A stretch of DNA of 64,000 nt, from positions 1-64,000 of the forward strand of contig JAJZIR010000009.1 of NCBI GenBank assembly GCA_021810505.1, in the 5' to 3' direction. Source of the stretch: a bacterium. Its GTDB lineage: Bacteria; Deinococcota; Deinococci; Deinococcales; Deinococcaceae. A program made the translations under genes and the position numbers. This document shows, piece by piece, positions 10,745 through 56,018 of the stretch. The first letter of the stretch is position 1. Each line of letters starts with the position of its first letter. Under the pieces are notes generated by a model, which was not told the origin of the DNA, did not search any database, and saw nothing but the letters and a program-made list of their open reading frames with translations.

Positions 10745-10758
10745 GCTAGGGAGAACGC

Positions 10759-39695: not shown

Positions 39696-41201
39696 TTAGC
39701 CCGTCCCCTGCACAGCAAAAATCCTCTCGTAGAGGTCCCTACCGAAGCTGGTGCTGAGCGGTTCACCGGGCCGGATCCGGTAGGAGCGCTGTCCCTCTGC
39801 ACCGCGCTCCGCTCGGAGAAACAGGACACCGGGGTCGTGTTCAGCCCAGAGCTGGCGGGCAAACTCGTAGAGGTGCGTCACGAAGAGCACCCGAACCCGG
39901 CGCTCTGAGAGGGCGTGCACCACTTGAAGGGCGATCAGAGAACCCTCGCGCTCGTTGGTCGCCGCGAAGGATTCGTTGCACAGCAGCATCGAGCCGGGAG
40001 CCAAGTGGTCGACGATCTGGCTGAAGCGGGCCACCTCCTCGTCGAACTTGCCGCGGCGCATCTCCGCATCCTCCTCCCTGCGGAAATGGCTGAACACCCC
40101 TTGGGCCAAGCTGGCGCTGAAGGAGGTGGCCGGTACCGGAAGACCGGCTTGCATCAGCAGTTGGGCCAGCCCGACGCTGCGCAGGAAGGTGGACTTCCCT
40201 CCCTGATTGGCGCCGGTGATGGTCACGAGCAGCGCGCCATCCCCTGCCAGCGCGTTGGGGACCGTCCCCGCCCGCAACCGGAGCAGCAGGTAGGCGTCGC
40301 GCAGATCGGTGAAGGAGAGGGCCCGCTCGGCCACCGGTCTGAGAAGCGGCGTGCAGCTGGGCGCACCGGACTCCTCCAGGAGGCGCTGCCAGCGGAGAGC
40401 GCCCAGGTAAAAAGCGCTCTCGTCGCGCAGAGCGGTAAAAAACGCGAGGACCTGATCCTGGTAATGGGACAAAAGCGTCGCCGAGCGCTCGATACCCCGG
40501 TCGCGCAGCTCGGAGAGAGCGTTGGCGCCGCCCTCATCGCGCTCGTCGATGGAAAAGCTGAGACCAGGGCTCTTGGCGAGCTTGCGCTGCAACCAGTTGC
40601 CCTGGGGTCTGGGGCGCTTGCGCGCCCGGTAGCGGCCGTACCCCCCGGTGCCGAGCTCAGCTGCCAGGAACAAGCCGGCTGGGAAAGCCAGCTCGGCGAG
40701 CAAAGCCTTGAGCTCGGCCAGGTAGCTTTCCGAAAACTCCTGCGTACAGGAAGCGAGGAAGCGGCACAGCCCCTCGGACTGGAGGCGGTCTAGGTAGCGG
40801 TCTGCCAGACCTCGGAGCTCCCCAAAAGCTCCCACGAAGATGTCCATGGCCTCCAGAGCGGCGTGCAAGCGCGCCGAGGGGTATTCGGTGAACACGGAGT
40901 GGAAAGTCTTGCGCTCGGCGGCGATCACCTGATTGGCCAGATCGTAGAGGGAGGTGATCAGCTCAGGGCAGCGCCGGGCGTCTTCCAGGACCGCTTGACG
41001 ATACGAGGCCGCCTGCAGGTCCGGTTCGGCCGCCGAGGACAACACCGCCTGGCGGAGGGAGGCGAGAATCTGAGCGTCACCTCCAGCCATCTCCTCCAAG
41101 AGCGCGGCGAGCTCTAGGTCGCGCAGCAGGTCCTCGGACCCCCAAGGGAGCTCGGCTTTCGGCAAGAGGTCACGGCTCGGAGACAGCAGTCTTGGCCTCA
41201 C
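39696..41201 (-). CDS. MutS-family ATPase B (last gene of fluoride operon)
   Basis: A 501-residue protein with only the core (lever/clamp-like helices) and the C-terminal ABC ATPase of MutS; the mismatch-recognition and connector domains are missing. Walker A is TITGANQGGKSTFLRSVG (near residue 329), then GVFSHFRREEDAEMRRGKFDEE, the signature-like segment, and SMLLCNESFAATNEREGSL as Walker B, with N-E where MutS has D-E. ILFVTHLYEFA-like H-loop follows (VLFVTHLYEFARQL). GTG 41201 overlaps ATPase A by four bases, so the two probably form a heterodimer. It differs from MutS1 and MutS2 (no Smr domain). Confidence 0.85.
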   Translation of the reverse strand: MRPRLLSPSRDLLPKAELPWGSEDLLRDLELAALLEEMAGGDAQILASLRQAVLSSAAEPDLQAASYRQAVLEDARRCPELITSLYDLANQVIAAERKTFHSVFTEYPSARLHAALEAMDIFVGAFGELRGLADRYLDRLQSEGLCRFLASCTQEFSESYLAELKALLAELAFPAGLFLAAELGTGGYGRYRARKRPRPQGNWLQRKLAKSPGLSFSIDERDEGGANALSELRDRGIERSATLLSHYQDQVLAFFTALRDESAFYLGALRWQRLLEESGAPSCTPLLRPVAERALSFTDLRDAYLLLRLRAGTVPNALAGDGALLVTITGANQGGKSTFLRSVGLAQLLMQAGLPVPATSFSASLAQGVFSHFRREEDAEMRRGKFDEEVARFSQIVDHLAPGSMLLCNESFAATNEREGSLIALQVVHALSERRVRVLFVTHLYEFARQLWAEHDPGVLFLRAERGAEGQRSYRIRPGEPLSTSFGRDLYERIFAVQGTG

Positions 41202-42739
41202 GGCGCCACCCGCTTGAGGATCCAGTCCCCCGTGATCCGGTGGCGCTCGGCGACCGAGAGGGCCAGGGAGCGCCCATCGGCCGGCCGGCGCAGGATCTTG
41301 AAGGTCCTCCGCAGCGGCTGCTCCGGATCCAGCGCGCTCACCAGGCTCACCGTCCAGAGGCCTAAGGAGGTCAGCTCGTCGACGAAGGTGACGTAAGCGC
41401 AGAGCGCTCCTATCCGGCCGATCTGCTCGAGAACTTTGGTTCCCAAAAAGAGGGCGTCCTCCAGGGCCGTCGAGCTGAAGACCTCGTTCAGCAGGATCAG
41501 GCTGCGCGGCGTCGCCGCGGAGAGGATGCGCGCCAGCCGCACCAGGTCGTCGTGGAGTTTTCCGGACAGGTCGGCAGTCTGCTCGCCGACTTCAAAGTGG
41601 GTGAAGACCCGGTCGGCCAGGAGCACCTCAGCTGAACTGCCTGGAACTGGACCGCCGAGGGCTGCCAGGTAGTGCAGCTGGCCGAGCAGCCGCAAGAAGG
41701 TGGTCTTCCCGCCCTGATTGGGTCCGGTGATCACCAGCACCCGCTCTCCGGGCTGCATCTGCAAGCTGTTGCGGACCACCGGCTGCCCCTCCGCCACCAG
41801 CTGCTGGGCTAGAGCGAGGTCGAAAGCCTCCTCGAAGGCCAAGTCGCTGGCTTCCGAGACCGCTGGGTAACAGAGCGGCAACTCGGCCCGCTGCAGCGGC
41901 GCCAGGTAGTTCAGGTACGCGGTAGCGAACAGCAGCTCGCGGCTTAAACGCTCCACAACCGGGTCGAGGTAAGCGCTATAGGTCTCCTGATAGCTGGCTA
42001 GCTCGGAGAAGACTTCGGGGTGGAGCTGGACGACCAGGTCCAGGATCTGCTCCTCGACGTGGTTCATCTGTAAGGCCCGGCTCCCCGCGGCCGCGGGGGG
42101 TGGCTCGGAGTCCGCTTCGAATTTCGCCAGAGTGGCCGAGACGGCCGCCGCCAGCTCCTCGCCGCCGGCACCCTTGCTGACCGTCACCCGCAAGCCGCGG
42201 ATACGCAGCTGGTAGCGGATGGAGTCCAGGTCCCCTCGGCGCAGGGCGCAATCCCCCAGCAGAGCCTGGTAGGCCGCCGAGGCGCGGTAAGCTCGCAGGT
42301 AACTGCGCAGGCCGAGCCAGGAAGCCGAGCTGAGCTGCAGCCCCTCTAGGCGAGCAGCCAAGGACTCCACCGCTTCCAGATACGAGGTAGTGGAGTTGAG
42401 AAACCAGATCCACCTCTGCGGGTCGCTGCGCAGGCGGGCTACCTGCTCCTGCCGCTGCCGCACCAACTCCATCGCAGCCAGGAAACCGTCCGCGGCTGCG
42501 CGCAGCTCAGGGCGCTCCAACTCCCTCAGGGCGCGTTGGCGATAGTCCACTGCGGCAATGCTGGTGAGTGGGGTGTAGAGCAGCTCGCGCAACCAAGGCT
42601 CAGGGTGCCCCGCGCAGATCCCGTCCACTATCTGGTCCAGGTTCAAGTCAGGAAAGCAGGAAGGCGGCGTGGCCGAGAGGGCTACCTGATTGGCAACCCA
42701 CAGCAGGCTCCCCGGCCAGGATGGGCTGGGAGAGCTCAT
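41198..42739 (-). CDS. MutS-family ATPase A
   Basis: A 513-residue paralogue of ATPase B. N-terminal half helical (REQ-rich, LARLEGLQLSSASWLGLRSY), C-terminal half ABC ATPase: VLVITGPNQGGKTTFLRLLG (Walker A, near residue 340), VFTHFEVGEQTADLSGKLHDD, SLILLNEVFSSTALEDALFL (Walker B, again N-E) and CAYVTFVDELTSL in place of the H-loop. ATG 42739 overlaps the metallophosphoesterase stop (ATGA). MutS-like genes are, from memory, among those originally listed downstream of the crcB (fluoride) RNA motif; here the riboswitch is about 9.6 kb upstream in the same operon. Substrate DNA structure unknown. Confidence 0.85.
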   Translation of the reverse strand: MSSPSPSWPGSLLWVANQVALSATPPSCFPDLNLDQIVDGICAGHPEPWLRELLYTPLTSIAAVDYRQRALRELERPELRAAADGFLAAMELVRQRQEQVARLRSDPQRWIWFLNSTTSYLEAVESLAARLEGLQLSSASWLGLRSYLRAYRASAAYQALLGDCALRRGDLDSIRYQLRIRGLRVTVSKGAGGEELAAAVSATLAKFEADSEPPPAAAGSRALQMNHVEEQILDLVVQLHPEVFSELASYQETYSAYLDPVVERLSRELLFATAYLNYLAPLQRAELPLCYPAVSEASDLAFEEAFDLALAQQLVAEGQPVVRNSLQMQPGERVLVITGPNQGGKTTFLRLLGQLHYLAALGGPVPGSSAEVLLADRVFTHFEVGEQTADLSGKLHDDLVRLARILSAATPRSLILLNEVFSSTALEDALFLGTKVLEQIGRIGALCAYVTFVDELTSLGLWTVSLVSALDPEQPLRRTFKILRRPADGRSLALSVAERHRITGDWILKRVAP

Positions 42740-43443
42740 GTGAGCCGAGCCGTCCGGTAAAGCCGGACCAACTCGTCCTGGACCGAGCCCGGTAACCCCC
42801 ACTCCCCCAGCGCGCGCAGGAGGGGTTGCCGGTCGTACTCAGCTCGCCGCAGAGAGAGCTCACCATCCTCCCAGGTGGCGTAGCAGGCCCGAGGGTCGCC
42901 GTCCAGCGGTTGACCTACCGAGCCAGGATTGACCACCCAAGCGTCTCCAGAGCGCCTGCGCAGGGGCAGGTGGGTATGGCCCAGCACCAGCAAGTCCGCT
43001 TCGGTAGCCGTCCGCTCGGCGAACAGGGTGGCTTCGGCATCCGGCTGCAGGCGGTAGTCGTATAAGGGATCCGCTTTGGAAGCGTGCACCATCTCGAGCT
43101 CGAGACCGGGCATCTGCCAAGTGAGTGCGAGAGGGAAAGACCGCAGGAAACGCAGCTGCGAGGGGTCCAACCGGGCCTGGCTGCGGCCCAGCAGCTCGGC
43201 GGCCAGCCACGCCTTGCTGGGGGCGGCCTGGGGATCGTCCCCCCAAACCAGAGCCTGGTCGTGATTGCCCCGGACGCAGCTGGCGGCCCGGCTCTGCAGC
43301 CAGGCCAGGACCTGCGCTGGCCTGGGACCGTAGTTGACCGCGTCCCCGGCGAAGAGCACCGCGTCGACCGGTCCAGCAGCACGCTCCACCGCCTCGAGCG
43401 CCCAGGGATTCCCGTGGGCGTCACTGATGATGAGCAGTCGCAT
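42736..43443 (-). CDS. YfcE/MJ0936-type metallophosphoesterase
   Basis: A 235-residue phosphoesterase. LIISDAHGNPWALEAVERA (DxH), VLFAGDAVNYGPRP (GDxxNYG), CVRGNHDQALVWG (GNHD) and VLGHTHLPLRRRSG plus VVNPGSVGQPLDGDP (GHTH and the terminal motif) give the two-metal site. Such enzymes cleave phosphodiesters or phosphomonoesters. ATG 43443 follows AGGAGG; the stop overlaps ATPase A. Its place between the coiled-coil protein and MutS-like pair suggests nucleotide or DNA-end processing in the fluoride operon, but that is inference. Confidence 0.9.
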   Translation of the reverse strand: MRLLIISDAHGNPWALEAVERAAGPVDAVLFAGDAVNYGPRPAQVLAWLQSRAASCVRGNHDQALVWGDDPQAAPSKAWLAAELLGRSQARLDPSQLRFLRSFPLALTWQMPGLELEMVHASKADPLYDYRLQPDAEATLFAERTATEADLLVLGHTHLPLRRRSGDAWVVNPGSVGQPLDGDPRACYATWEDGELSLRRAEYDRQPLLRALGEWGLPGSVQDELVRLYRTARLT

Positions 43444-43473: not shown

Positions 43474-44070
43474 TCAAGGCTGCGCTGGACCAGAGCCCCA
43501 CGCAGCCTGCAGCGCCAGCAACCGCTCCTCGATCCGGGTAAACAGAGGGGGTTCCGCTCCCAGAGTATCTGCCGCCGCGCGGTCTTCCGCCAGCGCGCGT
43601 TGGCGCAGCCGAGCCGCGCTGGCTAGCAGGCTGGTCGCCCTGCGGGCAGCCCAGCGACCTGAGTCAAGAGTCCACGGAACGAAGCGGCTGGCCTCCCAGG
43701 CCTCGCCCGCCAGGTCGGCCAACTCGCCGAGACCGGGCACGCCCAGCAGCTCAGCCTCCCTGCAGAAAGCCAGGGTGTCGTCGAGCAGGATTTCCCACCC
43801 AGAGACCCTTTGGTCGAGCTTGGAGAGCATCCGCAGCGCCGCGCTGGCCTCGGTGACAGCGGACTGAAGGTGGTATTCCAGGACCTGGCGGTCCCTCTGG
43901 CACTTGGTCAGCTGGTAGCGCAAGGTGGCATTTTCCTGGAACAGCGGCCCTGACTCCTGGACCAGGCGGTGGTTCTGTTCGGTCAGCCACTGCAGCTGAC
44001 GCTCCAGCTCAGCCAGGCGCTCCGGATCCGGAGCGCCCTCGGTACCCCGCCGGGGCCTACGCAGCATCAC
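43474..44070 (-). CDS. Coiled-coil protein of unknown function (fluoride operon)
   Basis: A 198-residue protein. Residues about 15-85 form a strong heptad pattern (ERLAELERQLQWLTEQNHRL, then ATLRYQLTKCQRDRQVLEYH), the rest is helical and alanine-rich with no motif I know. GTG 44070 overlaps the MFS stop; ATG 44067 is equally possible. It is 30 nt upstream of the metallophosphoesterase gene. It might be a scaffold for the membrane complex or the ATPases; nothing decides this. Confidence 0.7.
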   Translation of the reverse strand: MMLRRPRRGTEGAPDPERLAELERQLQWLTEQNHRLVQESGPLFQENATLRYQLTKCQRDRQVLEYHLQSAVTEASAALRMLSKLDQRVSGWEILLDDTLAFCREAELLGVPGLGELADLAGEAWEASRFVPWTLDSGRWAARRATSLLASAARLRQRALAEDRAAADTLGAEPPLFTRIEERLLALQAAWGSGPAQP

Positions 44071-45272
44071 TGACCCCCCGAGGCTGCCGCCCTGGGCGGA
44101 AGCGAGCGCAGGAAGCGGACCAGCAGGTAGATGGAGGCCAGCTCGGCGGCCAAGGAGAACGCCACCACCCCACCCACCCCCAGGGCGTCCAGGGCCCCCA
44201 GCATGACGCTCCCGATCAGCCAGGCGGCTCCGTACACCGAGTCGAACAGGCCGTAGGCCGCGCCGCGCTGCCCTTCGGGGATCAGGTTGGCCAGGCCGGA
44301 GCGCATCAGGCTCTCCTGCAGACCGAGAGCTGCCCCCCAGAGCACTGCCGCCAAGGCCAGCAGCCAGGCAGAGCCCGCCAGGAAGAAGAGCGGGGTCGCC
44401 AGCAGGCAGAGCGGCGGCAGGAAAGCGAGCGTCCTCAGGCCGAAGCGGTCGTAGGCCAAGCCAGCCAGATAGGCAGCCAGAGCGTCTGCACCCATGGCGA
44501 CAGCGAAGATCAGGGGGATGCCGTAGACCGGAACTAGGTGATCCACGCCCATGCGGTAGGCGACTAGCTGGAAGTGGGCGAAGCCGAGCACCACCACGGC
44601 CGAGAAGGCCAGGTAGGCGTAGAAGGCCGGCGGATACCCCCTGCGGAGCACTACCCTGGGTTTGGGCGGCGGCGCCGGCTGGCCGCGAGCCCGCACTAGG
44701 AAGGCCAGGGCCAGCAGAGCCGAGCCCAACAGGCCGGCGAAGCCGACGCGCAGGCCCCCCAGGGAAATCAACAGGGCGACCAGCACAGGGCCGATCAAGG
44801 CCCCCAGCTGGTCCAGGAGCTCGTGCAGGCCAAAGGCGCGGCCCTGGCCCACCTCTTCCCCGGCCCTGGCCAGGACTGCGTCTCTGGGCGGATTGCGGAC
44901 TCCCTTGCCCAACCTCTCGGCGAAGATGAGAGCGCTGGCGGTCCCGGCCCCGGAAGCCAGCGCCAGGGCCGGGACCGCCAGCAGGTTGATCGTGTAGCCC
45001 ACGGCCATCGCCAACCAGTGGCGCCCGCTGCGGTCGGCGTAGCGGCCCGAGAACCAGCGGACGCCGTAGCTGATGAATTCGCCGATCCCAGCGACCGCCC
45101 CTACCAGCAGCGGCCCGGCCCCCAGGGAGGCCAGGAAGGGGCCGGTGATGCTCCGCCCCCCCTCGTAGGTCATGTCGGCGAAGAGGCTGACCAGGCCGAT
45201 CCCGATGATGAACCGGGTGGCTACCCGCTTGCGCTGCTCCACAGCGCTTTTTTCCCGTGGATCAATGACCAT
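44067..45272 (-). CDS. MFS transporter of the fluoride operon
   Basis: A 401-residue, 12-TM major facilitator. N-terminal RFIIGIGLVSLFADMTYEGG, SITGPFLASLGAGPLLVGAV, and SGRYADRSGRHWLAMAVGYT (motif A, GxxxDRxGR) in loop 2-3; second-half loop YLAGLAYDRFGLRTLAFLPP. No substrate can be read from the sequence. ATG 45272 overlaps the antiporter-subunit stop by 11 nt, so it is translationally coupled to a membrane complex, which is unusual for MFS genes. Under fluoride control it could export fluoride, a fluorinated metabolite, or a metal-fluoride complex; this is speculation. Confidence 0.9.
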   Translation of the reverse strand: MVIDPREKSAVEQRKRVATRFIIGIGLVSLFADMTYEGGRSITGPFLASLGAGPLLVGAVAGIGEFISYGVRWFSGRYADRSGRHWLAMAVGYTINLLAVPALALASGAGTASALIFAERLGKGVRNPPRDAVLARAGEEVGQGRAFGLHELLDQLGALIGPVLVALLISLGGLRVGFAGLLGSALLALAFLVRARGQPAPPPKPRVVLRRGYPPAFYAYLAFSAVVVLGFAHFQLVAYRMGVDHLVPVYGIPLIFAVAMGADALAAYLAGLAYDRFGLRTLAFLPPLCLLATPLFFLAGSAWLLALAAVLWGAALGLQESLMRSGLANLIPEGQRGAAYGLFDSVYGAAWLIGSVMLGALDALGVGGVVAFSLAAELASIYLLVRFLRSLPPRAAASGGQ

Positions 45273-47148
45273 AGACCACCACCGCCCAGGCTAGGCCGAC
45301 CAGCAGGGCGGCCAGGATGTAGAGGGTGTAGAGGGTGACGTAACCGGCTTGAATCCGGGCAGCCAGGCGGATCAACAGGGTCGGGATGGACCCCACCGCC
45401 CGGTAGAGCTGATCCAGCCAGTCCCGAATCTCGGCCAGGTAGTGCCCCTGATCCAGACCCCAGAGCGGCCGGTAGAGGGCAGCGAAGACCTGGCGCAGCG
45501 AATTGGTGTAGCCGGTCCCGCTCACCTGGATCCGGCCGTGCTGCTCGGCTGAGGCGGCGACCCAGACCGGCACGATTCGCCTCCGCCTCCTAGCCAGCAA
45601 CCCCCAGAAGAGCAAAGTAACCGCCGGCAGGAAGACCCACAGAGCGGCCGGTGAGATCGCTGCGACGCTGGCGTAGGCCGGATTGACCTGCCAGTTGGCC
45701 CGGGCGACCAGCCTGGCCAACCGGACACCGTCCCCCAGCGCGCGGTCCAATACGGGAAAGACCGACCAGGGCAGCGCCGCAGCTGCCACCGAGAGCGCTA
45801 TCCCCAGGGCCGCCGACCAACGGGTCAACCCCGGCTCGGGGGCAGCCCGGGCAGCAGCCTCGCTGCGCGGGGCGCCGAGGAAACCGGTACCCAGAGCCTT
45901 GGTCGCCGCTACCAGGGCCGCGGCGCTGAGCAGCGCGAAGGCCGCGGCGCTGAGCAGCCAGACCAAGCGCACCGTGACACCCGGCAGGTGATAGCTCTGG
46001 AACAGCAGCTGGAACAGCAGCCACTCCCCCACGAAGCCCGAGAAGGGCGGCAGGGCGCCCAGACTGAGCAGGCCGGCGAAAGCGCCGGCAGTCGACCAGG
46101 GCAGGCGCCTAGCTAGGCCACCCATCCAGTCCAGTGAGCGTATCCCGGTGGCCTGCTCGGCGGCTCCGGCAGCCTGCAGCGCCAGGCCTTTATCCAGGAG
46201 GTGGTGCAGGCTCAGGTAGAGGGCCAGCAGCAGGCCGAGGTCCCCCAAGCGCAGCTCTCCGGCAGCCTGAAAGGTCAGGCCGGCACCCAGGGCCATCCAC
46301 ACGATCCCCCCGTTCTCTACCGTCGAGAAGGCCAACAGCCGCCGGAGCTCCGGCTCGGCCAGGCTCCGGAAGGCGGCGTACGTCGCTGTCAGCGCTCCCA
46401 GGACCAGAAGCACCGTTCCCCCGGCCACCCCCACTTTCAAGAAGCTGGTACAGAAGCGGAGCAGACCGTACACTGCGGCGATCCACATCGCCCCCGAATA
46501 GAGAACCGTCCCGCTGGACCTGGTAGCCTGGTAGGCATCCGAGACCCAGCCGGTCAGGGGCAGAGCGCCCAGCTTGGCCCCGAAACCGATCAGGACCAGA
46601 GCCAAGACTAGGGCGTTGGCCTGAGGGGCGGCCTCCAACGCCGCGAAGTTGGCGTGGCCCAACAGCAAGAAGGCGGCGAAGAGGGCGCCCACCCCCACCT
46701 CTAAAAACCCCGCCATCTTGGCGGCGCTCTGGCCATCCCGGTGCCCGGTCATCAGGTAAGCGGCCAGGCCCATCAGTTCCCAGCCGGCCAGGAAAGTCTC
46801 CGCTGTCCCGGCAGCGATGGTGAGCAGGACCCCGGCCAACAGCAGCGGCAGGCTTAGGCGTTCCAGCCGGCTGACCCCTCGCTCCGAAGCGGCAAAGAGC
46901 AGGGCAGGAACGCTGAGGGCGGCCATGACCAGGCTGACCCTGGATAGGGCGTCCAGGCGCAAGGCCAATTGAAAGGGCCCCAGGCCCCAGAGCGGCAGGC
47001 TCGCAGGGACCACCAGGCGGGCTAGCTCTCCGAACAGCAACAGCAGAGCGGCGATCGCCAGAGCCTCAGCCCAACGGCGCGCCGGCCAGAGCGCTCCGGC
47101 CAGAGTGCCAGCTAGCAGCAGGGCTAAGGCCATGAGCAGGAGAGTCAC
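45262..47148 (-). CDS. Hydrogenase-4 subunit B-like antiporter-type membrane subunit
   Basis: A 628-residue protein of the NuoL/M/N-HyfB family with about 14-16 TM segments. The TM5 glutamate is present in LAGWELMGLAAYLMTGH. The TM7-8 region reads GAKLGALPLTGWVSDAYQAT and RSSGTVLYSG, where the family has GxKxxxxPxHxWLPxAHxxAPSPVSAxxSG; the lysine is kept but the histidine and APSPVSA are lost. A C-terminal membrane stretch extends the protein. GTG 47148 overlaps the small-subunit stop (GTGA). Inferred: membrane proton/ion channel half that is partly modified. Confidence 0.88.
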   Translation of the reverse strand: MTLLLMALALLLAGTLAGALWPARRWAEALAIAALLLLFGELARLVVPASLPLWGLGPFQLALRLDALSRVSLVMAALSVPALLFAASERGVSRLERLSLPLLLAGVLLTIAAGTAETFLAGWELMGLAAYLMTGHRDGQSAAKMAGFLEVGVGALFAAFLLLGHANFAALEAAPQANALVLALVLIGFGAKLGALPLTGWVSDAYQATRSSGTVLYSGAMWIAAVYGLLRFCTSFLKVGVAGGTVLLVLGALTATYAAFRSLAEPELRRLLAFSTVENGGIVWMALGAGLTFQAAGELRLGDLGLLLALYLSLHHLLDKGLALQAAGAAEQATGIRSLDWMGGLARRLPWSTAGAFAGLLSLGALPPFSGFVGEWLLFQLLFQSYHLPGVTVRLVWLLSAAAFALLSAAALVAATKALGTGFLGAPRSEAAARAAPEPGLTRWSAALGIALSVAAAALPWSVFPVLDRALGDGVRLARLVARANWQVNPAYASVAAISPAALWVFLPAVTLLFWGLLARRRRRIVPVWVAASAEQHGRIQVSGTGYTNSLRQVFAALYRPLWGLDQGHYLAEIRDWLDQLYRAVGSIPTLLIRLAARIQAGYVTLYTLYILAALLVGLAWAVVVYGH

Positions 47149-47873
47149 GTGTCTACCACCTCCTTCCCCAACCAGAGCAGCAAGGACCGGAGCAGGGCCA
47201 GTGGGCTCGGCGGTGAGCCCGGAACGTAGAGATCGACCGGCAGGTACGCGTCCACCCCGCGCTCCGACCACAGGCCTCCGGAGACGGCGTCGGTGCCGTA
47301 GGCGACCACCCACTTGGGGGCCGGCATGGCTGCGTACACCTCAAGGAGTCCGGGCGACAGGGCCGCGGTCGGAGATCCGGTCACCAGCAGGACGTCGGCG
47401 TGCCTGGGGCTGGGCGTGAAGAAGATCCCCAGGCGGTGGAGGTCGTAGGCGGGGCTGACCAGCTGTTGCAGCTCCGACTCCTCTCCCCCATCGCTGCCGG
47501 CGTCAAAGTGCAGGAGGTGCAGGGAGCCGCGGAAGCGGGCCAGGGGGCCAGGGGCCGGTCCCAACAGCTCCGGGGCAATGAGCCCTGCTCGGGCCGTGGA
47601 GGCTACGTCGCAACGGCGCAGCATCGCGATCTCCTCTGGGCGGTGCCGGGCGCAGATCCCGCAGCCGATACAGCGGCCGTAGTCGATCCGCAGTTCCCCT
47701 TGGCTGGAAGCAGAGATCGCCGCAGTGGGGCAGCTAGCCGCCAGCTCAGCGCTGAACTCTGCTGCTCCCAGGGACGGCCAGGACATGCCCAGCTCCGCCG
47801 GCTCCGGCGGCCGCTTAGGGTAGCGGGTGGTCTGGCGACCAGCTCGTAGGCCTTGCCAAGTCCAAGACGGCAT
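47145..47873 (-). CDS. Ferredoxin-fused HyfI/NuoB-like small subunit lacking the proximal cluster
   Basis: A 242-residue fusion. Residues 40-85 are half of a bacterial ferredoxin: C48 in ASCPTAAIS and C68, C71, C74 in RCIGCGICARH. These are exactly the four ligands of one cluster of a 2[4Fe-4S] ferredoxin; the partner cluster's ligands are absent (R78 stands at the fourth position). Residues 110-242 match NuoB/HyfI, but the four proximal-cluster cysteines are D128 and E131 (GSDGGEE for GSCNGCE), D195 (YGTDAVSGG) and S220 (YVPGSPP). So this subunit carries one cluster only and cannot pass electrons by the normal route. ATG 47873 follows GAGGGGGAG. Confidence 0.88.
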   Translation of the reverse strand: MPSWTWQGLRAGRQTTRYPKRPPEPAELGMSWPSLGAAEFSAELAASCPTAAISASSQGELRIDYGRCIGCGICARHRPEEIAMLRRCDVASTARAGLIAPELLGPAPGPLARFRGSLHLLHFDAGSDGGEESELQQLVSPAYDLHRLGIFFTPSPRHADVLLVTGSPTAALSPGLLEVYAAMPAPKWVVAYGTDAVSGGLWSERGVDAYLPVDLYVPGSPPSPLALLRSLLLWLGKEVVDT

Positions 47874-47886
47874 CTCCCCCTCCTCT

Positions 47887-49236
47887 CTAGCGGTCCCAGG
47901 CGGCTTGTAGCGGGTGGAAACTCACCTGATTGATGATGTAGTCCATCTGACTGGAAGACATGCGCATCCCCTGCGCGAAGGCTGGCCAGAGCAGTTGCGA
48001 GGCCGGCCGCAGCGCCCAGTGGGGTTGGCCAGAAGCGTCGCAGCGCAGGTAGGCCAGAGTCTCCCCCCTGGGGCCCTCGGCGTAGCCCAGGGCCTCACTC
48101 CCTGGAGGTAACGGTCCGGGGGGATTGTGCACCGGGCCACCGACCCGCCGGAGCGCCGAGACGGCGCGCTGGATCAAGTCGAAGCTGATCCGCAGTTCCT
48201 CCGCGCGCACCCGGCAGCGCGCCAGCGCGTCCCCCTCCTCGTGGATCGGGACTCCTAGACCGAGCTCGGGGTAAGCCCCGTAGCCGGGATCTACCCGCAG
48301 GTCCTGACCCAGGCCGCTGGCCCGGGCGCTGGGACCTACTAGGCAAAAATCCAGAGCGCCTTGTCTGGATACGGCCCCGCTCCGCTCCAAGCGGTCGACA
48401 AAGAGCTCGGTCGCCAGCAAGCGGTCGAGGTAGGCCGCTGCCCGGCGCTGCAGAGCGTCCAGCTCGGCCAGCCAGCTGCCAGAGGGCAGCGGTGGTTCAG
48501 CCACCAACCCCCCCACCGCCACCAAGCCGCGCAGGAAGCGCGAAGCGCTCAGCTGTTCGGCTAGGCGCTGCACCCCCTCCTTCAAGGTGGCGGCCTGGGC
48601 CTCACCGACCCGCAGGGTAGCTGTCGCTGCCTGGCGGGCGAAGTAGTCGAGGTGGTTATAGAGGCGCTCCAGTTCGGCGAAGACCACCCGCCAGAGCTCC
48701 GCTCGGGGCGGGGGCACCGCCCCGGTCGCTGCTTCGGCTGCCCTAGCCACCGCCAGGCTATCGGCCACTGAGCTCAGGGCCGCGAGGCGTTCGGCGACCC
48801 TGGGCAGCCAGGCTAGGGGAATCTCTCCCAAGCGGCGCTCCACCCCCCGGCGCTTCAGGAAGGGCCTCAACTCCACGGCGGCGATCCGCTCCCCTCCGCT
48901 GACGATTCGGTGGAAGATGGCCTCCGACTGAGTCTCCCTGACCGGGCCGTAAGGGAAGGCGAACAGCTGCGGGTTGGAGTCCAGCAGGTCCCGCCCCTGG
49001 CCCTCCTGCGCCGAGAAGGCCAGGCCGTACCAGCGCTCAGCTTCCAGCTCGGCCCAGTACAGCGCCGGCCAGCTCTCCCCCAAGCGCGGCAGGGGCGGCT
49101 CGGCGCGGAGGACCAGATAACCGCCTTCCCGGTAAAGGACCTGCCGCACCTCCCCACCCAGGACGGCTAGCTGGGCAAATCTGGCGCGGCCGCGCCAGGC
49201 CGCGAGGTCTCCCGCCATGGGGATCAGCGTGCTCAC
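47887..49236 (-). CDS. HyfG/NuoD-like large subunit without NiFe ligands
   Basis: A 449-residue relative of group 4 NiFe-hydrogenase large subunits and NuoD. Recognisable blocks: the N-terminal HyfG-type domain (1-140), VELRPFLKRRGVERRLGEIP, ELWRVVFAELERLYNHLDYF (family E-x-E-R-L-x-N-H), GAYPELGLGVPIHEEGDALA with VRAEELRISFDLIQRAV, and a C-terminal PHWALRPASQ. The RxCGxC and DPCxxC nickel-iron motifs are replaced (ALSSVADSLAVARAAE, NQVSFHPLQAAWDR); the whole protein has three isolated cysteines. It resembles the Ehr (energy-converting-hydrogenase-related) class. GTG 49236 overlaps the F-like subunit stop. Confidence 0.88.
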   Translation of the reverse strand: MSTLIPMAGDLAAWRGRARFAQLAVLGGEVRQVLYREGGYLVLRAEPPLPRLGESWPALYWAELEAERWYGLAFSAQEGQGRDLLDSNPQLFAFPYGPVRETQSEAIFHRIVSGGERIAAVELRPFLKRRGVERRLGEIPLAWLPRVAERLAALSSVADSLAVARAAEAATGAVPPPRAELWRVVFAELERLYNHLDYFARQAATATLRVGEAQAATLKEGVQRLAEQLSASRFLRGLVAVGGLVAEPPLPSGSWLAELDALQRRAAAYLDRLLATELFVDRLERSGAVSRQGALDFCLVGPSARASGLGQDLRVDPGYGAYPELGLGVPIHEEGDALARCRVRAEELRISFDLIQRAVSALRRVGGPVHNPPGPLPPGSEALGYAEGPRGETLAYLRCDASGQPHWALRPASQLLWPAFAQGMRMSSSQMDYIINQVSFHPLQAAWDR

Positions 49237-50684
49237 TGGGGCACCGCCAGCAGCTGCCTGGCCAGCAGGTGCAGGAGTTGCTGGATCGGACCGGGAGTGA
49301 CGACCGAGAACAACAGGATCAGGGCGGCTCCGACCCCCAAGGGGACCAGGGCCAGCCAGGACGCGTCCTGGCTGGCCTCCCCGGCTGCTCGGCCCGGTCC
49401 GAAGATGACCGAGCTCCAACGCCCGACGAACAGCGCGAAGACCAGGACCAACAGGGCAATAAATAGCAGACCGAGCCAAGTACCCTGACCCAGGGCCGCC
49501 TGCGCGATCCCCAACTCGCTCGGAAACAGGTTGAGCGGCGGAGCTCCGGTGACCGCCCAGCCAGCCAGCAGGAGCACGAAGCCGGTGAACGGCATCCGCC
49601 CCAGCAGCCCACCGAGTTCCGAGAGGCGTTGGCCAAAGCGCTGCACTGCATTGCCGGCAGCGAAGAACAAGCTGGACTTGACCAGAGTGTGGTTGAGCAT
49701 CTGCAAGCCCAGCAGGTAGGGAGCGGACAGACCCAAGGCGAAGGCGATAATCCCCATGTGTTCGACGCTGGAGTAGGCCAGCAGGCGCTTGAGCCGGCTC
49801 TGGCTACCCAGGTTCAGGGCGGCGATCAGCAAGGAGAGCAAGCCAAAAAAGATAAGCAGTCCGTCCGGAAAGCTCGGCCCCAGGGTCACCCTGGCGATCT
49901 GCCAGAAGCGGGCCACTCCCAGGAAAGCGGTGTTGAGCAGGCAGCCCGAGAGCATCGCGCTGACCGGGGAAGGAGCCACCGCGTGGGCGTCGGGGAGCCA
50001 GGTGTGCATCGGCACCAAGCCGACCTTGGTGCCGTAGCCGATCACCGCCAGCACCAGTGCCAACGCCACCGGAGCCGGCGAGAAAGCCCTGGCGTGCGCG
50101 AGCAGGCTGGGCCAGTCGGGCGCGAAGACCTGGCCCAGGACTGGTACGGCGGCGTAGTAGAGCAAGATGGTCGCAGCGAAGGCCAGGGAGACCCCTACGG
50201 TCACGACGATCACATACTTCCAGGCTCCCTCCAAAGCCTCCGGGCTGCGGTCGAAAGCGACCAACAGCGAGGACGTGAGAGTAGTGAGCTCGATCAGCAC
50301 CCAGTAGAGGGCCAGATTGGTGAACAGCGGGGCTGCCAGCATGCTGGCAGAAAAAAGGGCCCACAGGGCGTAGTACTGGCGCAGGGGGCGCAGGGAGAGG
50401 CGGTGGGAGCCCGAGAAATAGCCGGCGCTATGCCAAGAGGACTGGAAGACCACGAAGGCGACCGTCCACAGGACCAAGGTGCCCAGGCCGTCCAAGCTGA
50501 CTGCCTGCCCCCACAAATTCAGCTGACCGCTGGCTAGGGCCGCGGCGCCGAGCAGCCCGGCGAGGACTAAGACCAAGGCGCCGACCGCGATGGCGCCCAC
50601 CCGGAGGGCCGACGCGTCTAGCCAACCGGCCAGCGCAGCCAGGGCCAGAGGGGCAGCGACCAGCGAGATCACCAGGGCGCTCAT
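49233..50684 (-). CDS. Hydrogenase-4 subunit F-like antiporter subunit
   Basis: A 483-residue, about 14-TM protein of the HyfF/NuoN/M family. Unlike the B-like subunit it keeps the full channel motif: YWVLIELTTLTSSLLVAF (TM5 Glu), YGTKVGLVPMHTWLPDAHAV and APSPVSAMLSG (TM7 Lys, TM8 His). It should therefore be competent for proton or cation movement. ATG 50684 overlaps the E-like stop (ATGA). Third gene of the fluoride operon. Confidence 0.92.
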   Translation of the reverse strand: MSALVISLVAAPLALAALAGWLDASALRVGAIAVGALVLVLAGLLGAAALASGQLNLWGQAVSLDGLGTLVLWTVAFVVFQSSWHSAGYFSGSHRLSLRPLRQYYALWALFSASMLAAPLFTNLALYWVLIELTTLTSSLLVAFDRSPEALEGAWKYVIVVTVGVSLAFAATILLYYAAVPVLGQVFAPDWPSLLAHARAFSPAPVALALVLAVIGYGTKVGLVPMHTWLPDAHAVAPSPVSAMLSGCLLNTAFLGVARFWQIARVTLGPSFPDGLLIFFGLLSLLIAALNLGSQSRLKRLLAYSSVEHMGIIAFALGLSAPYLLGLQMLNHTLVKSSLFFAAGNAVQRFGQRLSELGGLLGRMPFTGFVLLLAGWAVTGAPPLNLFPSELGIAQAALGQGTWLGLLFIALLVLVFALFVGRWSSVIFGPGRAAGEASQDASWLALVPLGVGAALILLFSVVTPGPIQQLLHLLARQLLAVPQ

Positions 50685-51331
50685 CCGCGCAGCTCCCGGG
50701 ACCAAGCCGCTGCGTCCCCCATGCGCTCGACCATCACCCGGGCCAGCAGGCCCACCACCACCACCAAGATCAGCAGATCGAAGAGGACGACCACCTCGTT
50801 GAACAGGGGAAAGCCGGGGATCAAACCTACCGCCAGGAGGAAAAGGCCGTTCTCGATCACCAAGAGGCCCAAGACCTGAGGAAAGGCCTCGGGTCGGCTA
50901 GAGGTGAGAAAAAAGCCGAGCAGGACCAGGGCTAAGCCAGTCGCGAAGGAAGACAGGACCAAAGGGCTCCCGGAAGGAAGCAGCCGAGCGGCGGCCAGGA
51001 TCGCGAACCCGATCAGCAGGGCACCGATCAGGACGGAAGAGGGGTTGCCGAGGATCAGCCGCTCCTCGCGGCGGGACGGCAAGGCCTCGGCGAAGCGCCG
51101 CAGCATCCAGGGAACCGCCAGGGCGCGCACCAGCAGGGTCACAGCCGCGGCCAGATAGAGCTCGGGGTGGTGCTCGAGCAGCGCCGCCGCCGCCGTGAAT
51201 AGGGCCAGGACCAGAGACTGGACCTGATAGGCGAGCAGCTGGGAGATGAAGAAGCGGGTCGCCAGGATCATCAGCGTGCTGGCCAGGAAGATGACCGCCC
51301 CCAACTCACCGACGTCGACGAGGGCGTTCAC
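50681..51331 (-). CDS. Hydrogenase-4 subunit E-like membrane protein
   Basis: A 216-residue protein with six to seven TM segments. The end VVVLFDLLILVVVVGLLARV and the EFPQxxGxLxxENG-like stretch (FPQVLGLLVIENGLFLLAVG) match HyfE, which combines a NuoK-like core with extra helices. The conserved glutamate in VIENG is the NuoK-type channel residue. GTG 51331 overlaps the C-like stop (GTGA). It would sit between the B/F antiporter subunits and the C-like anchor. Confidence 0.9.
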   Translation of the reverse strand: MNALVDVGELGAVIFLASTLMILATRFFISQLLAYQVQSLVLALFTAAAALLEHHPELYLAAAVTLLVRALAVPWMLRRFAEALPSRREERLILGNPSSVLIGALLIGFAILAAARLLPSGSPLVLSSFATGLALVLLGFFLTSSRPEAFPQVLGLLVIENGLFLLAVGLIPGFPLFNEVVVLFDLLILVVVVGLLARVMVERMGDAAAWSRELRG

Positions 51332-52284
51332 GCTTTCCCGCCGATCTGGGAGGCCAGGGTGGCCAGGACTGCGATCAGGAAGGTCAAGGAGAGGTATTCG
51401 GCGTAGCGGTAGTAGCGCAGCCTGGCCAAGCTAGTCTCCAGGACGGCGACCAGGGCGCCCAAGACCAGCATCTTGAGCAGCAAGCTGCCTTCTGCCAGCA
51501 GGAAAGCCAGGGCGCTAAAGTGGCTGGCCATCCCCCAAGGCAGGGCGAAGACATCGAGCAGGATCACCATCAAGAGGAACTGCTTGCTGTGGCCGGACCA
51601 AGAGAGCAGAGTCAGGTCGGGACCGCCGTACTCGACCAATCTGGCCTCCTCGATCATGCTGGCTTCGGTGGCGCCGCCGTGGTTCCCGATCGGGAGGCGA
51701 CCGCTATCCACCAGGAAAATCAGGAAAAAGGCCAGCAGGGCCAGCAGGTGGGTGGGGTTCAGGTAGCTCGCCCAGCTCTGCCGGTAAGCCGCGCCGGCCA
51801 CATAGGGGTAGGTGGCGTGCGCGAAGAGCGCCACCGAAACCAGCACCAGGACCAGGGCCGGTTCGACCAAAACGGTGAGCAAACCCCCGCGCCAGGCACC
51901 GATACCCCCATAACTCCCCCCAGGCTCTAGTCCGCCCAGGGTGATGCAGGTGCTGGAAAGGGCGAAGAGCATACCCCCGGCCAGCATGTCTCCCATCCAG
52001 GCCAGCGGCAGGGGAAAGGTAGTCAGGACCGGGATCAGGGTGGCGATCGCCGCCATGGTGGCCAGGCTCAGCGGAGGCGCGACCGCGTAGATCCAGCCAG
52101 CCGCGCCAGGCCGGAGCAACTCCTTGCCCCACCATTTGTACAGGTCACGGTAGGGCTGCCAGACCGACACGCCCTGCCTCCCCTCGATCCGGGCGACCAG
52201 CCAGGCGATCCAGCCCGAGATGAACGGCGAGATCGCCAGCATGGAGACGACTTGCAGGACCTGCCAGAGCACCGCCATCAGCAC
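51328..52284 (-). CDS. Hydrogenase-4 subunit C-like (NuoH-type) membrane anchor
   Basis: A 318-residue, eight-TM protein related to HyfC/HycD/NuoH. WLVARIEGRQGVSVWQPYRDLYKWWGK is the NuoH cytoplasmic loop 1 (RxxGRxG, QPxxDxxK), cut here into pieces of GRQGVSVWQPYRDLYKWWGK. EASMIEEARLVEYGGPDLTL is the acidic loop that couples to the peripheral arm. First gene after the fluoride riboswitch; GTG 52284 (ATG 52278 possible) lies 50 nt after the terminator T-tract. It should anchor the G/I subunits to the membrane. Confidence 0.93.
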   Translation of the reverse strand: MLMAVLWQVLQVVSMLAISPFISGWIAWLVARIEGRQGVSVWQPYRDLYKWWGKELLRPGAAGWIYAVAPPLSLATMAAIATLIPVLTTFPLPLAWMGDMLAGGMLFALSSTCITLGGLEPGGSYGGIGAWRGGLLTVLVEPALVLVLVSVALFAHATYPYVAGAAYRQSWASYLNPTHLLALLAFFLIFLVDSGRLPIGNHGGATEASMIEEARLVEYGGPDLTLLSWSGHSKQFLLMVILLDVFALPWGMASHFSALAFLLAEGSLLLKMLVLGALVAVLETSLARLRYYRYAEYLSLTFLIAVLATLASQIGGKA

Positions 52285-52333: not shown

Positions 52334-52370
52334 CAAAAAGATGGCTCCTACCCGTTCCGGTAGGAGCCAT
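52334..52370 (-). terminator. Intrinsic terminator = expression platform of the fluoride riboswitch
   Basis: On the minus strand, a 12-bp stem ATGGCTCCTACC/GGTAGGAGCCAT (52359-52370 with 52341-52352, 6-nt loop) is followed by C-TTTTT (52334-52340). The 5' arm is the last part of the aptamer, so folding of the aptamer and of the terminator exclude each other. Fluoride binding should therefore allow read-through into the hyfC-like gene. Confidence 0.9.
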
Positions 52371-52405
52371 TAGCCCGAAGGGCGGTTGTGGCGAGCTCCA
52401 TCGCC
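52359..52405 (-). promoter_or_regulatory. Fluoride riboswitch (crcB motif) aptamer
   Basis: Read on the minus strand, the 47-nt segment consists of GGCGATGGAGCTCGCC, then ACAACCGCCCTTCGGGC, then TAATGGCTCCTACC. This matches the crcB/fluoride aptamer: P2 GGCG/CGCC, P3 GCCC-TT-CGGGC, P1/pseudoknot GGAGC with GCTCC, and the invariant GATG and TAATG(G/A)C-CCTAC segments. It aligns nearly base for base with the Thermotoga petrophila fluoride aptamer as I remember it. Transcription from the TATACT at 52414-52419 would begin within a base or two of the aptamer 5' end. It controls the whole downstream operon (52284 to 39696). Confidence 0.93.
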
Positions 52406-52413
52406 TAGGGAGC

Positions 52414-52419
52414 AGTATA
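52414..52419 (-). promoter_or_regulatory. -10 element TATACT of the fluoride operon
   Basis: TATACT ends 8 nt before the aptamer, so the RNA should start at about 52406. A TTGACC -35 candidate (52439-52444, minus strand) lies 19 nt upstream and overlaps the stop codon of the second DUF190 gene. Confidence 0.7.
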
Positions 52420-52440
52420 CCTGCGCCTAGCCCGCCCCGG

Positions 52441-52797
52441 TCAAGAGGTCCGTGCCTGGTAGAGCTCCACCTGAGCTCGCTCTAGCGTCACCATGCGGTC
52501 GGGCAAGTCCTCAGTCCAGGAGGAGCGCAAGAAGGCCTCCAGCCGGTCCCTGCGGTCGACCATCTCGATGACCACCGGCTGGAACTGCGGCCGAAACTCC
52601 AGGACGTCCAAAATGGTCTCGAAGCCGTGGCGACCAAAACCCGAAGTTCCGCGGAGCACGGTGGCGCCGGCCAGCCCAGCCTTCCTGGCCTCCTCTAGGA
52701 GATAGTCGGCCAGGGGGCGGCGGCCGAAGCGGTCACCGTCCAGGAGGTAGACGCGCAGCATGCTGCGCTCGCCCTCGAGGTCGAGCCCGCCGTTCAC
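52441..52797 (-). CDS. DUF190 protein (copy 2)
   Basis: A 118-residue PII-like ferredoxin-fold protein of the DUF190 family: MLRVYLLDGDRFGRRPLADY, LLEEARKAGLAGATVLRGTS, GFGRHGFETILDVL and PVVIEMVDRRDRLEAFL. DUF190 genes are known neighbours of crcB fluoride channel genes, where they may sense nucleotides; no crcB is seen here. GTG 52797 overlaps copy 1 by four bases; internal ATG at the MLRVYLL segment is an alternative start. The fluoride-operon promoter starts at its stop codon. Confidence 0.88.
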   Translation of the reverse strand: MNGGLDLEGERSMLRVYLLDGDRFGRRPLADYLLEEARKAGLAGATVLRGTSGFGRHGFETILDVLEFRPQFQPVVIEMVDRRDRLEAFLRSSWTEDLPDRMVTLERAQVELYQARTS

Positions 52798-53135
52798 TTC
52801 TTCCCCCGGTCGAGCACGAAGATGACCTCTCGGGTGATCAGCGCCCCGCCGGAGAGCAGCTCGGCCGCCGTGGAGAGGAAGGTCTCGATCCGCTGGGCGC
52901 TATCGACGAATTCGACGACCACCGGGAGGTCGCTGCTCATCCGGAACAGGCTGCTCTTGTGGATGACCGATTTGGCTCCAAAGCCGGCTGTGCCCTGCAG
53001 CACCGTACCCCCTCTGAGGCCGCTATCTCTGGCCTTCCTGAGCAGTAGGTCCGAAACCGGTTCTCCGTGCAGGCGATCGGAGTGGCCCAGGAAGATCCTG
53101 AGCAACTCCTCCTGCCGCCAGACCAGATCTCGCAT
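52794..53135 (-). CDS. DUF190 protein (copy 1)
   Basis: A 113-residue paralogue of the next gene with the family pattern ELLRIFLGHSDRLHGEPVSD, LLLRKARDSGLRGGTVLQGT, AGFGAKSVIHKSSLFRMSSD and LPVVVEFVDSAQRIETFLST. It resembles PII signalling proteins in fold. It starts 23 nt after the etfA stop, so it probably belongs to the acyl-CoA dehydrogenase/ETF transcript. Having two paralogues suggests a heteromer. Confidence 0.88.
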   Translation of the reverse strand: MRDLVWRQEELLRIFLGHSDRLHGEPVSDLLLRKARDSGLRGGTVLQGTAGFGAKSVIHKSSLFRMSSDLPVVVEFVDSAQRIETFLSTAAELLSGGALITREVIFVLDRGKK

Positions 53136-53158: not shown

Positions 53159-54112
53159 TCAGTCTCTGCGCCCCCGCAGAGCCTGGATCAGGGCAGGCAC
53201 CACCTTGTGGAGGTCCCCGATCACGGCCAAGTCGCTGGACTTGACCATGGGGGCCTCCGGATCCTTGTTCACGGCCACGATGTAGCCGGACTTGTTCATC
53301 CCGGAGAGGTGTTGAACGGCGCCCGAAACGCCGATGGCCAGGTAGACCTTGGGCTGGACCGTTTGGCCGGTCTGGCCGACCTGCTCAGCGTAGGGGCGCC
53401 ACCCGGCGTCCACCACTGCGCGGGTCGCCCCTACGCCGGCTCCCAGCAGGTCGGCCAGCTCCTCGAGCATCGCGAAGGCCTCCTGGCTCCCCAGCCCCCG
53501 GCCACCCGTCACCACCACCTCGGCTTCGGACAGCGGGACGCGGCTGAGCTTCTGACCGACGAAGTCGCGTTCCTCCAGGGGAGAAGAGGTGGCCACCTCG
53601 AGCACTCGGACCTCAGCGGCGGGTACGCTCACCAGTTCAGCAGGGCTCACGCTTCCAGCTTTGACGCTGACCACTGCGGGGGGGTGGGTAGAGCGGCGCT
53701 GCCAGATCCGCCCGAGGTAGGCGTAGCAGGTGGCGCTGAGCTGCTGGCCGTCCAGCTGGAGTTCGGCGGCGTCTTCCAAGAGAGCCCAGCCGCGCTGAAC
53801 GGCCAATCTGGGGCTGTAGGAGCGCCCCAAACGGCCGGCTGGCAGCAGCAGCAGCTGGGCCTCCGCAGCCTGCAGGGCAGCTTCCGCAGCCTGCGCCGCC
53901 CTCTGGGGATCGGTGCTGGGTAACCCCTCCCCGCGCAGCAGCCAGAGCTGGTCCACGGCGCATCTGGCCTGATCCAGCAGGGGCTGTACCGGGTCTCCGA
54001 TCAGGAATCCGCCGAGCGGGGAATCTCCTGCCAGCTGCCGACCCAGGCTGACCAGCTCCAGGGAGGCGCGGCTCAAGCCCGCACCGGTACCATCTAGGGC
54101 CAGCAGGATCAT
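53159..54112 (-). CDS. etfA: Electron transfer flavoprotein alpha subunit
   Basis: A 317-residue flavoprotein. The C-terminal FAD domain has VVDAGWRPYAEQVGQTGQTV, YLAIGVSGAVQHLSGMNKSG and VAVNKDPEAPMVKSSDLAVI, the EtfA signature that holds FAD. VTGGRGLGSQEAFAMLEELA precedes it. With EtfB it passes electrons from acyl-CoA dehydrogenases to the quinone pool. ATG 54112 overlaps etfB by four bases. Spacing suggests one operon from 57182 to 52441. Confidence 0.95.
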   Translation of the reverse strand: MILLALDGTGAGLSRASLELVSLGRQLAGDSPLGGFLIGDPVQPLLDQARCAVDQLWLLRGEGLPSTDPQRAAQAAEAALQAAEAQLLLLPAGRLGRSYSPRLAVQRGWALLEDAAELQLDGQQLSATCYAYLGRIWQRRSTHPPAVVSVKAGSVSPAELVSVPAAEVRVLEVATSSPLEERDFVGQKLSRVPLSEAEVVVTGGRGLGSQEAFAMLEELADLLGAGVGATRAVVDAGWRPYAEQVGQTGQTVQPKVYLAIGVSGAVQHLSGMNKSGYIVAVNKDPEAPMVKSSDLAVIGDLHKVVPALIQALRGRRD

Positions 54113-54861
54113 AGGCGCACCTTGGCGGTCTGCTCCAGCCAGCTCAGCAGCTCAGCGGCGGCTTCCTGGGGGTCAGAGACCGCGATCCTCTGGCCCAACC
54201 TGGCCTTGGCCGCGCTGCCCTGGGCCACCAGCTGCCAGCCATCCGCTAGGGTCACTGGGATGGACTCGCTGCGGACCTCCTTGCTGCGGGAGCGGCGGAT
54301 GTTGGGCAAGGTGGGATAGCGCGGCTCGTTGAGCCCCTGCTGGGTAGTTACCACCGCCGGCAGGGCCACCTCGAAGGCGGCGCTCCCACCCTCGACGTCG
54401 TGGCGGCCGCGCAACACCCCGCCGTCTAGCTGCAGGGCGTGGCACCAACTCACCTGCGGCCAGCCCAGGCAAGCGGCGATGGCTGGCCCCAGAGCCTGGC
54501 TGTCCCAGTCCGACTGTTGGCTTCCGGTCAGAATCAAGTCGGCCTGCTCGTCCCTGGCCACCTCCGCCACCGCTCTGGCGACCGCCAGGGGGTCGGCGAG
54601 CTCGCCGACAAGAAGCCTGGCGCGGTCTAAACCCATGGCCAGGGCGGCGCGCAAGGTCTCCTCCAGAGCAGCTGCCCCGACCGCGACGGCGATCAGCTCG
54701 GCCTCCAAGCCGGCCTCTCTGAGCAGCAGGGCCTCCTCGACGGCGTACTCGTCCATACCGTCGAGGACCAAGCTGGCCCGGGAGAGGTCCAAATTGCCCT
54801 CCGACACTTCCAGGCGCGATTCCGCATCCGGAACCTGCCGCACCGCTACCAAGATCTTCAC
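54109..54861 (-). CDS. etfB: Electron transfer flavoprotein beta subunit
   Basis: A 250-residue protein: MKILVAVRQVPDAESRLEVS at the N-terminus, MDEYAVEEALLLREAG, DLILTGSQQSDWDSQALGPA (AMP/nucleotide loop) and LPAVVTTQQGLNEPRYPTLP, the EtfB recognition segment. It binds AMP (or FAD in bifurcating types) and docks dehydrogenases. I see no fused bifurcation feature. ATG 54861 lies 9 nt after the acyl-CoA dehydrogenase stop. Confidence 0.95.
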   Translation of the reverse strand: MKILVAVRQVPDAESRLEVSEGNLDLSRASLVLDGMDEYAVEEALLLREAGLEAELIAVAVGAAALEETLRAALAMGLDRARLLVGELADPLAVARAVAEVARDEQADLILTGSQQSDWDSQALGPAIAACLGWPQVSWCHALQLDGGVLRGRHDVEGGSAAFEVALPAVVTTQQGLNEPRYPTLPNIRRSRSKEVRSESIPVTLADGWQLVAQGSAAKARLGQRIAVSDPQEAAAELLSWLEQTAKVRL

Positions 54862-54870
54862 GGTTCCCCC

Positions 54871-56013: not shown

Positions 56014-56018
56014 CGCCC

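Follow-up and report, generated by a model that had tools for sequence, protein, structure and literature searches.

The window, as we call the whole 64,000-nucleotide stretch of DNA that was analyzed, carries on its reverse strand a fluoride riboswitch followed by a long operon (Table 1). The aptamer is the single match to this riboswitch in its own genome assembly. Its 3' end is overlapped by the 5' arm of an intrinsic terminator, which was the one element found in the terminator scan against 0.1 expected (fold z of -2.45). Aptamer and overlapping terminator have the textbook arrangement of an ON-switch expression platform and would be predicted to act as one. A possible promoter lies just before the aptamer; its spacing is 1 nt over the usual range, and the consensus scan did not report it. 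On the 3' side of the riboswitch, the genes run in the order hyfC, hyfE, hyfF, large subunit, small subunit, hyfB, major facilitator (MFS) transporter, coiled-coil protein, phosphoesterase, and two MutS-like ATPases, with overlaps or short gaps between them. The operon therefore unites group 4-like large and small subunits, a NuoH-like subunit, and antiporter-like subunits, the combination by which energy-converting-hydrogenase-related (Ehr) complexes are recognized.

Table 1. Features of the fluoride-switched operon and its upstream neighbors (positions in the window).
Feature	Position	Strand	Evidence and remarks
Second DUF190 protein	52794..53135	-	PF02641, 101 bits
DUF190 protein	52441..52797	-	PF02641, 72.6 bits; directly upstream of riboswitch
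Possible promoter	52414..52444	-	TTGACC-N19-TATACT, just before aptamer; read from sequence, weak
Fluoride riboswitch aptamer (RF01734)	52354..52414	-	cmscan 54.5 bits against cut-off of 34, full model length
Intrinsic terminator	52341..52370	-	12-pair stem, then CTTTTT
HyfC/HycD/NuoH-like membrane subunit	51328..52284	-	Start GTG 52284 or ATG 52278
HyfE-like membrane subunit	50681..51331	-	NCBIfam PRK11492, 51 bits (below cut-off); conserved Glu160
HyfF antiporter-like subunit	49233..50705	-	PF00361, 135 bits
Large subunit, HycE/NuoD-like	47887..49236	-	GTG start, 449 aa, without NiFe ligands
Small subunit	47145..47873	-	Ferredoxin-like N-terminus fused to NuoB/HycG domain; PF01058, 60.7 bits
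HyfB/NuoL antiporter-like subunit	45262..47148	-	PF00361, 93.9 bits; 7z0s_C, E=4e-36; start computed
MFS transporter	44067..45272	-	PF07690, 99.4 bits
Coiled-coil protein	43474..44070	-	Weak coiled-coil matches only
Calcineurin-like phosphoesterase	42736..43443	-	PF12850, 84.5 bits; homologue behind fluoride riboswitch in L080
MutS-like ATPase A	41198..42802	-	PF00488, 66.9 bits; true start probably slightly downstream
MutS-like ATPase B	39696..41201	-	PF00488, 68 bits; homologues beside fluoride riboswitches

The genes flanking the complex have relatives at other fluoride riboswitches. In our survey of Deinococcota, the phylum to which the window genome belongs, 19 of 111 genomes had a fluoride riboswitch above the cut-off, and the riboswitches of this phylum precede homologues of MutS-like ATPase A, the MFS transporter, the phosphoesterase, and DUF190. 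A homologue 51% identical to the window MFS protein stands behind one in another Deinococcota genome (L088), and homologues of ATPase A follow them directly in Thermus (L073, L074, L077, L092, L095). A DUF190 pair lies behind a riboswitch in L086, and a DUF190 gene holds the same upstream place in Burkholderia (L098, L116). Because the homologues of the distal genes are fluoride-switched in Deinococcota, the window operon joins an Ehr complex to genes of a fluoride regulon. Fluoride riboswitches of Deinococcota, Burkholderia, Mycobacterium, and Alicyclobacillus repeatedly have such a MutS-like pair (39696-42802 in the window) downstream or alongside. Neither crcB nor a CLC gene is present in the window operon; the genome encodes CrcB and two CLC-family proteins outside it, and we rejected on that ground the idea that the operon substitutes for missing fluoride exporters. 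Normal NuoD and NuoB are also encoded elsewhere in the genome.

We then considered the large subunit. Pfam Complex1_49kDa matched it at 97.5 bits, which places it in the NuoD/HycE family, and its best solved relative is HycE of Escherichia coli formate hydrogenlyase (FHL; 7z0s_E, E=1e-28), also the best fold match of its structure model (TMq of 0.75). The structure models were built from shallow alignments and were moderate (pLDDT 70.6 and 65.5), and they were used for fold confirmation only, not residue placement. The initial annotation had described a protein with three isolated cysteines, no CxxC, and no NiFe ligands, and both translation and alignment to FHL bore this out. There are exactly three cysteines in the 449 residues, none in a CxxC, and all four ligand positions are non-cysteine when compared with the FHL loci L101 and L105. 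The L1 motif RVCGICG of intact FHL large subunits is aligned with RLAALSS in the window protein, and the L2 motif DPCYSC with HPLQAA; GPxR replaces GPxH, and the EPGHF motif is lost. A sequencing accident as the source of the missing cysteines was ruled out by the open frame, its 4-nt overlap with hyfF, and the ligand-less relatives in the same clade. A search for HypD (PF01924) gave no match in the genome, which is 97.85% complete, and matches in control genomes. As the NiFe ligands and HypD are both absent, hydrogen chemistry is excluded, just as the initial annotation had held. That annotation had also excluded formate chemistry, in keeping with which no formate dehydrogenase gene adjoins the operon.

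The small subunit has lost cofactor ligands as well. One ferredoxin-type cluster motif is left in its N-terminus (CPTAAI plus CIGCGIC), while alignment to HycG (7z0s_G) shows that all four ligands of cluster N2 are gone, with D, E, D, and S in their places. The HycG segments DCGGCNGCE, YGAC, and PGCPP correspond to DAGSDGGEE, YGTD, and PGSPP, and the former N2 stretch spans DAGSDGGEESE. Without these four ligands, the one relay known to serve the large subunit is missing. Judged by these residues, the window complex is without a NiFe site and without a cluster that would feed a NiFe site or quinone, and it is more degraded than the usual Ehr in that N2 is absent too.

In the membrane arm, the residues of the ion path are kept. 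HyfC matched PF00146 at 90.7 bits and 7z0s_D with E=5e-35, and it is 42-45% identical to the HyfC proteins of the fluoride-linked clade described below. In the residue table, HyfF retains the transmembrane residues Glu139, Lys227, His339, Lys343, and Glu397. HyfB, encoded by the last gene of the complex here as throughout that clade, likewise retains its Glu, Lys, and His. Across HyfF and HyfB, the TM5 Glu, TM7 Lys, TM12 Glu, and the His/Lys positions are conserved in the window and, with few exceptions, in its relatives, and MrpA and MrpD show up as relatives of the window's antiporter-like subunits.

Plasmid searches revealed the same gene order behind riboswitches on plasmids of Burkholderia multivorans, B. 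cenocepacia, Mycobacterium branderi, and Caballeronia; the annotated plasmid loci sit inside fluoride islands with crcB, DUF190, diphosphatase (ppa), enolase (eno), MutS, and MFS genes. When 398 genomes of a single family, which we took to be Burkholderiaceae, were searched for HyfC, 11 loci were found at 43-45% identity, below which there was a gap to the next matches at 39% and less. A riboswitch lies directly upstream on the coding strand at all 11, with 10 found independently by the Rfam model, and when the tables were compared by eye, none of the riboswitches among those listed stood within 5 kb of the other, lower-identity HyfC genes. Nothing above 37% identity was recovered by a HyfC search of 398 Pseudomonadota species, so the clade is rare there, and viral contigs held no relatives. 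Counted over distinct loci, the riboswitch is directly upstream in 15 of 15 clade operons and of an orphan gene in Alicyclobacillus, against 0 of ~43 other Ehr/FHL loci, a comparison to which we attach no probability since the loci share ancestry and fluoride islands were in part the source from which the clade was first defined. The earlier suggestion that fluoride control gives a clue to at least one Ehr branch thus holds for one whole branch. NiFe ligands are absent from every riboswitch-linked large subunit found, and unlike real FHL operons, the fluoride-clade loci have no HycH, HycI, or formate dehydrogenase genes among their neighbors. In the Burkholderiaceae relatives, dN/dS of the large and small subunits is ~0.06-0.10, indicating purifying selection.

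The Alicyclobacillus gene, on plasmid NZ_CP066785.1 of Alicyclobacillus sp. ALC3 (L099), is an orphan Ehr large subunit (9758-11254) with its own riboswitch (9555-9615); no small subunit lies near it, and the plasmid gave no HyfC match. The islands of L098 and L116, the latter on the B. cenocepacia conjugative plasmid NZ_CP073671.1, contain several riboswitches each, together with genes for enolase, diphosphatase, a dynamin-family protein, MutS, DUF190, and crcB. Some genomes in the Rfam model search had 10-12 riboswitches each. Two of them (G536, G694), with 10-11 riboswitches, had no HyfC match, so fluoride gene sets of this kind can do without the Ehr complex.

To place the window complex among its relatives, HyfC, HyfF, and large-subunit sequences were combined in an IQ-TREE phylogeny of 44 rows; with two FHL rows and no Ech or Mbh rows, it is limited as to wider placement. 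The fluoride clade was supported at 100/99, the Thermaceae-group Ehr at 100/100, and the two NiFe FHL rows at 100/100. The window row falls in the fluoride clade, apart from the NiFe FHL. The Ehr assignment of the initial annotation was therefore right in the broad sense, and the idea that the operon is a recent pseudogene from inside the functional group 4 hydrogenases was rejected on this clade support and the intact frames. Vertical descent from Deinococcota Ehr was rejected as well, since a clade uniting the window with the Thermaceae-group Ehr had a p-AU of 9e-8, and the operon was probably acquired along with fluoride genes. A grouping of the window with M. branderi was not rejected (p of 0.36); these two and Alicyclobacillus are long branches, which leaves the internal branching of the clade uncertain.

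Cofactor states were then read across the tree. Every Burkholderiaceae member has the four N2 cysteines (CCCC), as do the other Ehr for which the site could be read. The corresponding positions are D, E, D, and S in the window and N, D, D, and A in M. branderi, and the ligands are lost in every Thermaceae-group Ehr. Parsimony gives three changes; a sister relationship between the window and M. branderi would lower this to two. Former N2 positions are often acidic, and the third is D or E in every one of the 13 rows of the tree set that lack N2. Each fluoride-clade member has at least one CxxCxxC ferredoxin-type motif, and the Burkholderiaceae have a two-cluster ferredoxin domain. The change from GPxH to GPxR in the large subunit (Arg100 in the window) was found in 14 of 14 fluoride-clade rows, as opposed to none of the 30 others. 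The histidine of EPGHF is likewise lost in all 14, but kept in 28 of 28 other Ehr and in both FHL. HyfC residue 212 is Glu in the fluoride clade and His or Gln in the others, and the clade also shows a His to Tyr change at HyfB residue 261. Taken clade-wide, Arg100, the lost EPGHF histidine, and Glu212 mean that the coupling site is altered even where N2 persists. The changes to HyfC Glu212 and large-subunit Arg100 fall in two subunits that are expected to touch, and could form a charged pair or anion site. The Thermaceae-group Ehr (L034-L053; Thermus, Meiothermus, and other Deinococcota) have no fluoride riboswitch, have lost all four N2 ligands, and are under purifying selection; by these sequence features, the group is a second, independent redox-dead Ehr lineage.

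Among known systems, the Ehr complexes of Thermus/Meiothermus, Bradyrhizobium, Caldovatus, and Cupriavidus resemble that of the window in having the same six subunits, a large subunit without NiFe cysteines, and antiporter-like HyfB and HyfF. The window clade differs from them in having hyfB last rather than first, a fluoride riboswitch, DUF190 upstream, and GPxR; moreover, most other Ehr keep N2 and have no ferredoxin domain, whereas the window has the ferredoxin domain and has lost N2. For HyfC, HyfB, and the large and small subunits, the alignment to E. coli FHL-1 (HycBCDEFG, 7z0s) and Hyf covers most of the protein, though the window lacks the NiFe ligands, N2, formate dehydrogenase, HycH/HycI, and Hyp maturation of those systems. 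With respiratory complex I it has in common the NuoH/B/D/L/M/K-like core, but not the NADH module, N2, or the GPxH quinone-side motif. Mrp Na+/H+ antiporters and DabAB pumps use NuoL/M/N-type subunits free of redox chemistry; they have no NuoH-, NuoB-, or NuoD-like subunits, all three of which are encoded in the window operon.

The link between fluoride and such genes has a history. Genes named "formate hydrogen lyase" appear among those that Weinberg 2010 (PMC2864571) listed downstream of the crcB motif. A 2024 review (PMC11139923) took the riboswitch-linked "formate hydrogen lyase" as true FHL metabolism, a switch to fermentation. These are very probably the same loci, with a group 4-like operon; in contrast to the metabolic reading, we find no hydrogenase active site in them and place them in one separate clade. 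Ehr complexes have been described as lacking NiFe ligands and as being of unknown function (PMC6349859; PMC10432482). Among the papers accessible to our literature search, none connects the fluoride-riboswitch FHL genes with Ehr, and none reports N2 loss. The fluoride clue that the initial annotation had called new appears to be so for an Ehr branch, while the riboswitch link to "formate hydrogen lyase" dates from 2010. What appears to be new is the recognition that the fluoride-linked loci make up an Ehr branch of their own, one that is NiFe-dead and in some members wholly redox-dead.

From its identity, regulation, and clade, the window complex almost certainly belongs to a separate Ehr branch that has spread horizontally, and is induced by fluoride. 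Its probable role is to move ions under fluoride stress, and not to act as a "formate hydrogen lyase." As to mechanism, we tentatively favor, at a little short of even confidence, a putative Mrp-like secondary H+/cation antiporter that would serve pH and proton-motive-force homeostasis during HF entry. Fluoride would enter as HF and acidify the cytoplasm; its binding to the aptamer would stop termination, and the complex would be made. As electrons would have no route to a catalytic site or to quinone, redox pumping would be impossible, and the large and small subunits would sit on the HyfC channel as a structural cap or gate, with the remaining ferredoxin-type cluster being structural or sensory. 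Influx of HF acidifies cells, and among riboswitch-linked classes Na+/H+ antiporters rank second in frequency (PMC11139923). The riboswitch and terminator, the absence of NiFe ligands, N2, and HypD, the ion-path residues, the strict fluoride linkage, the island context, and purifying selection all support antiport. Counting against it, a pure antiporter does not obviously need large and small subunits, which are absent from Mrp complexes, and the lone Alicyclobacillus large subunit without HyfC is hard to explain. The Burkholderiaceae also keep N2 and their two-cluster ferredoxin domain, so that redox chemistry may play a part in the majority of clade members. A possible but more doubtful reading is a complex I-type machine free of all redox chemistry: in the window and M. 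branderi lineages the entire NuoB/NuoD-like head would have turned into a gate, or into a sensor of an ion that may be fluoride, and would control a NuoH/antiporter ion path serving fluoride resistance alone, the electron path having been lost at least two times independently, the second in Thermaceae-group Ehr without fluoride control.

The ferredoxin-type motif in all members and the N2 of the Burkholderiaceae would instead suit a redox-driven ion pump with an unrecognized acceptor, in which electrons pass from ferredoxin through the N-terminal cluster to a novel site and the loss of N2 in the window and M. branderi is bypassed or explained by a new cofactor; the acidic former N2 positions could bind another metal. 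We consider this unlikely, given the clade-wide loss of the GPxH and EPGHF histidines and the loss of the relay. Somewhat less likely again is a fluoride exporter in which the antiporter-like subunits, or an altered HyfC/large-subunit cavity, move F- or HF coupled to H+. The strict fluoride control, the clade-specific charge changes near the HyfC/large-subunit interface, the HyfB change, and the absence of an exporter gene from the operon fit such a role; yet the genome has its own CrcB and CLC proteins, the Burkholderia and Alicyclobacillus islands have crcB next door, and the core residues of the antiporter-like subunits are those usual for H+/Na+ transport. To our knowledge, there is no case of anion transport in this superfamily. 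Progressive loss of cofactor ligands and the long branch of the window row could also indicate a decaying, non-functional hydrogenase operon, which we regard as very improbable: all frames are open and overlapping, riboswitch and ion-path residues are intact, selection in relatives is strongly purifying, and intact complexes without N2 persist in two or more separate lineages. A true formate hydrogenlyase, induced by fluoride and shifting the cell to fermentation, has the published gene names in its favor (PMC2864571, PMC11139923) and is scarcely credible against the ligand-less large subunits of all riboswitch-linked loci, the lack of HypD, and neighborhoods without formate dehydrogenase, HycH, or HycI.

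The "formate hydrogen lyase" of the fluoride regulon can thus not be a hydrogenase at any locus found and belongs to a separate Ehr branch, for which fluoride is the first physiological trigger, making the question of Ehr function testable. Its N2-less members offer a natural experiment on complex I coupling, in which the antiporter arm and HyfC are kept without the driving electron path, and the same fluoride-switched complex recurs in distant bacteria. Finally, we note that etfA, etfB, and two acyl-CoA dehydrogenase genes (53159-57182) lie just upstream of, and colinear with, the DUF190 pair.
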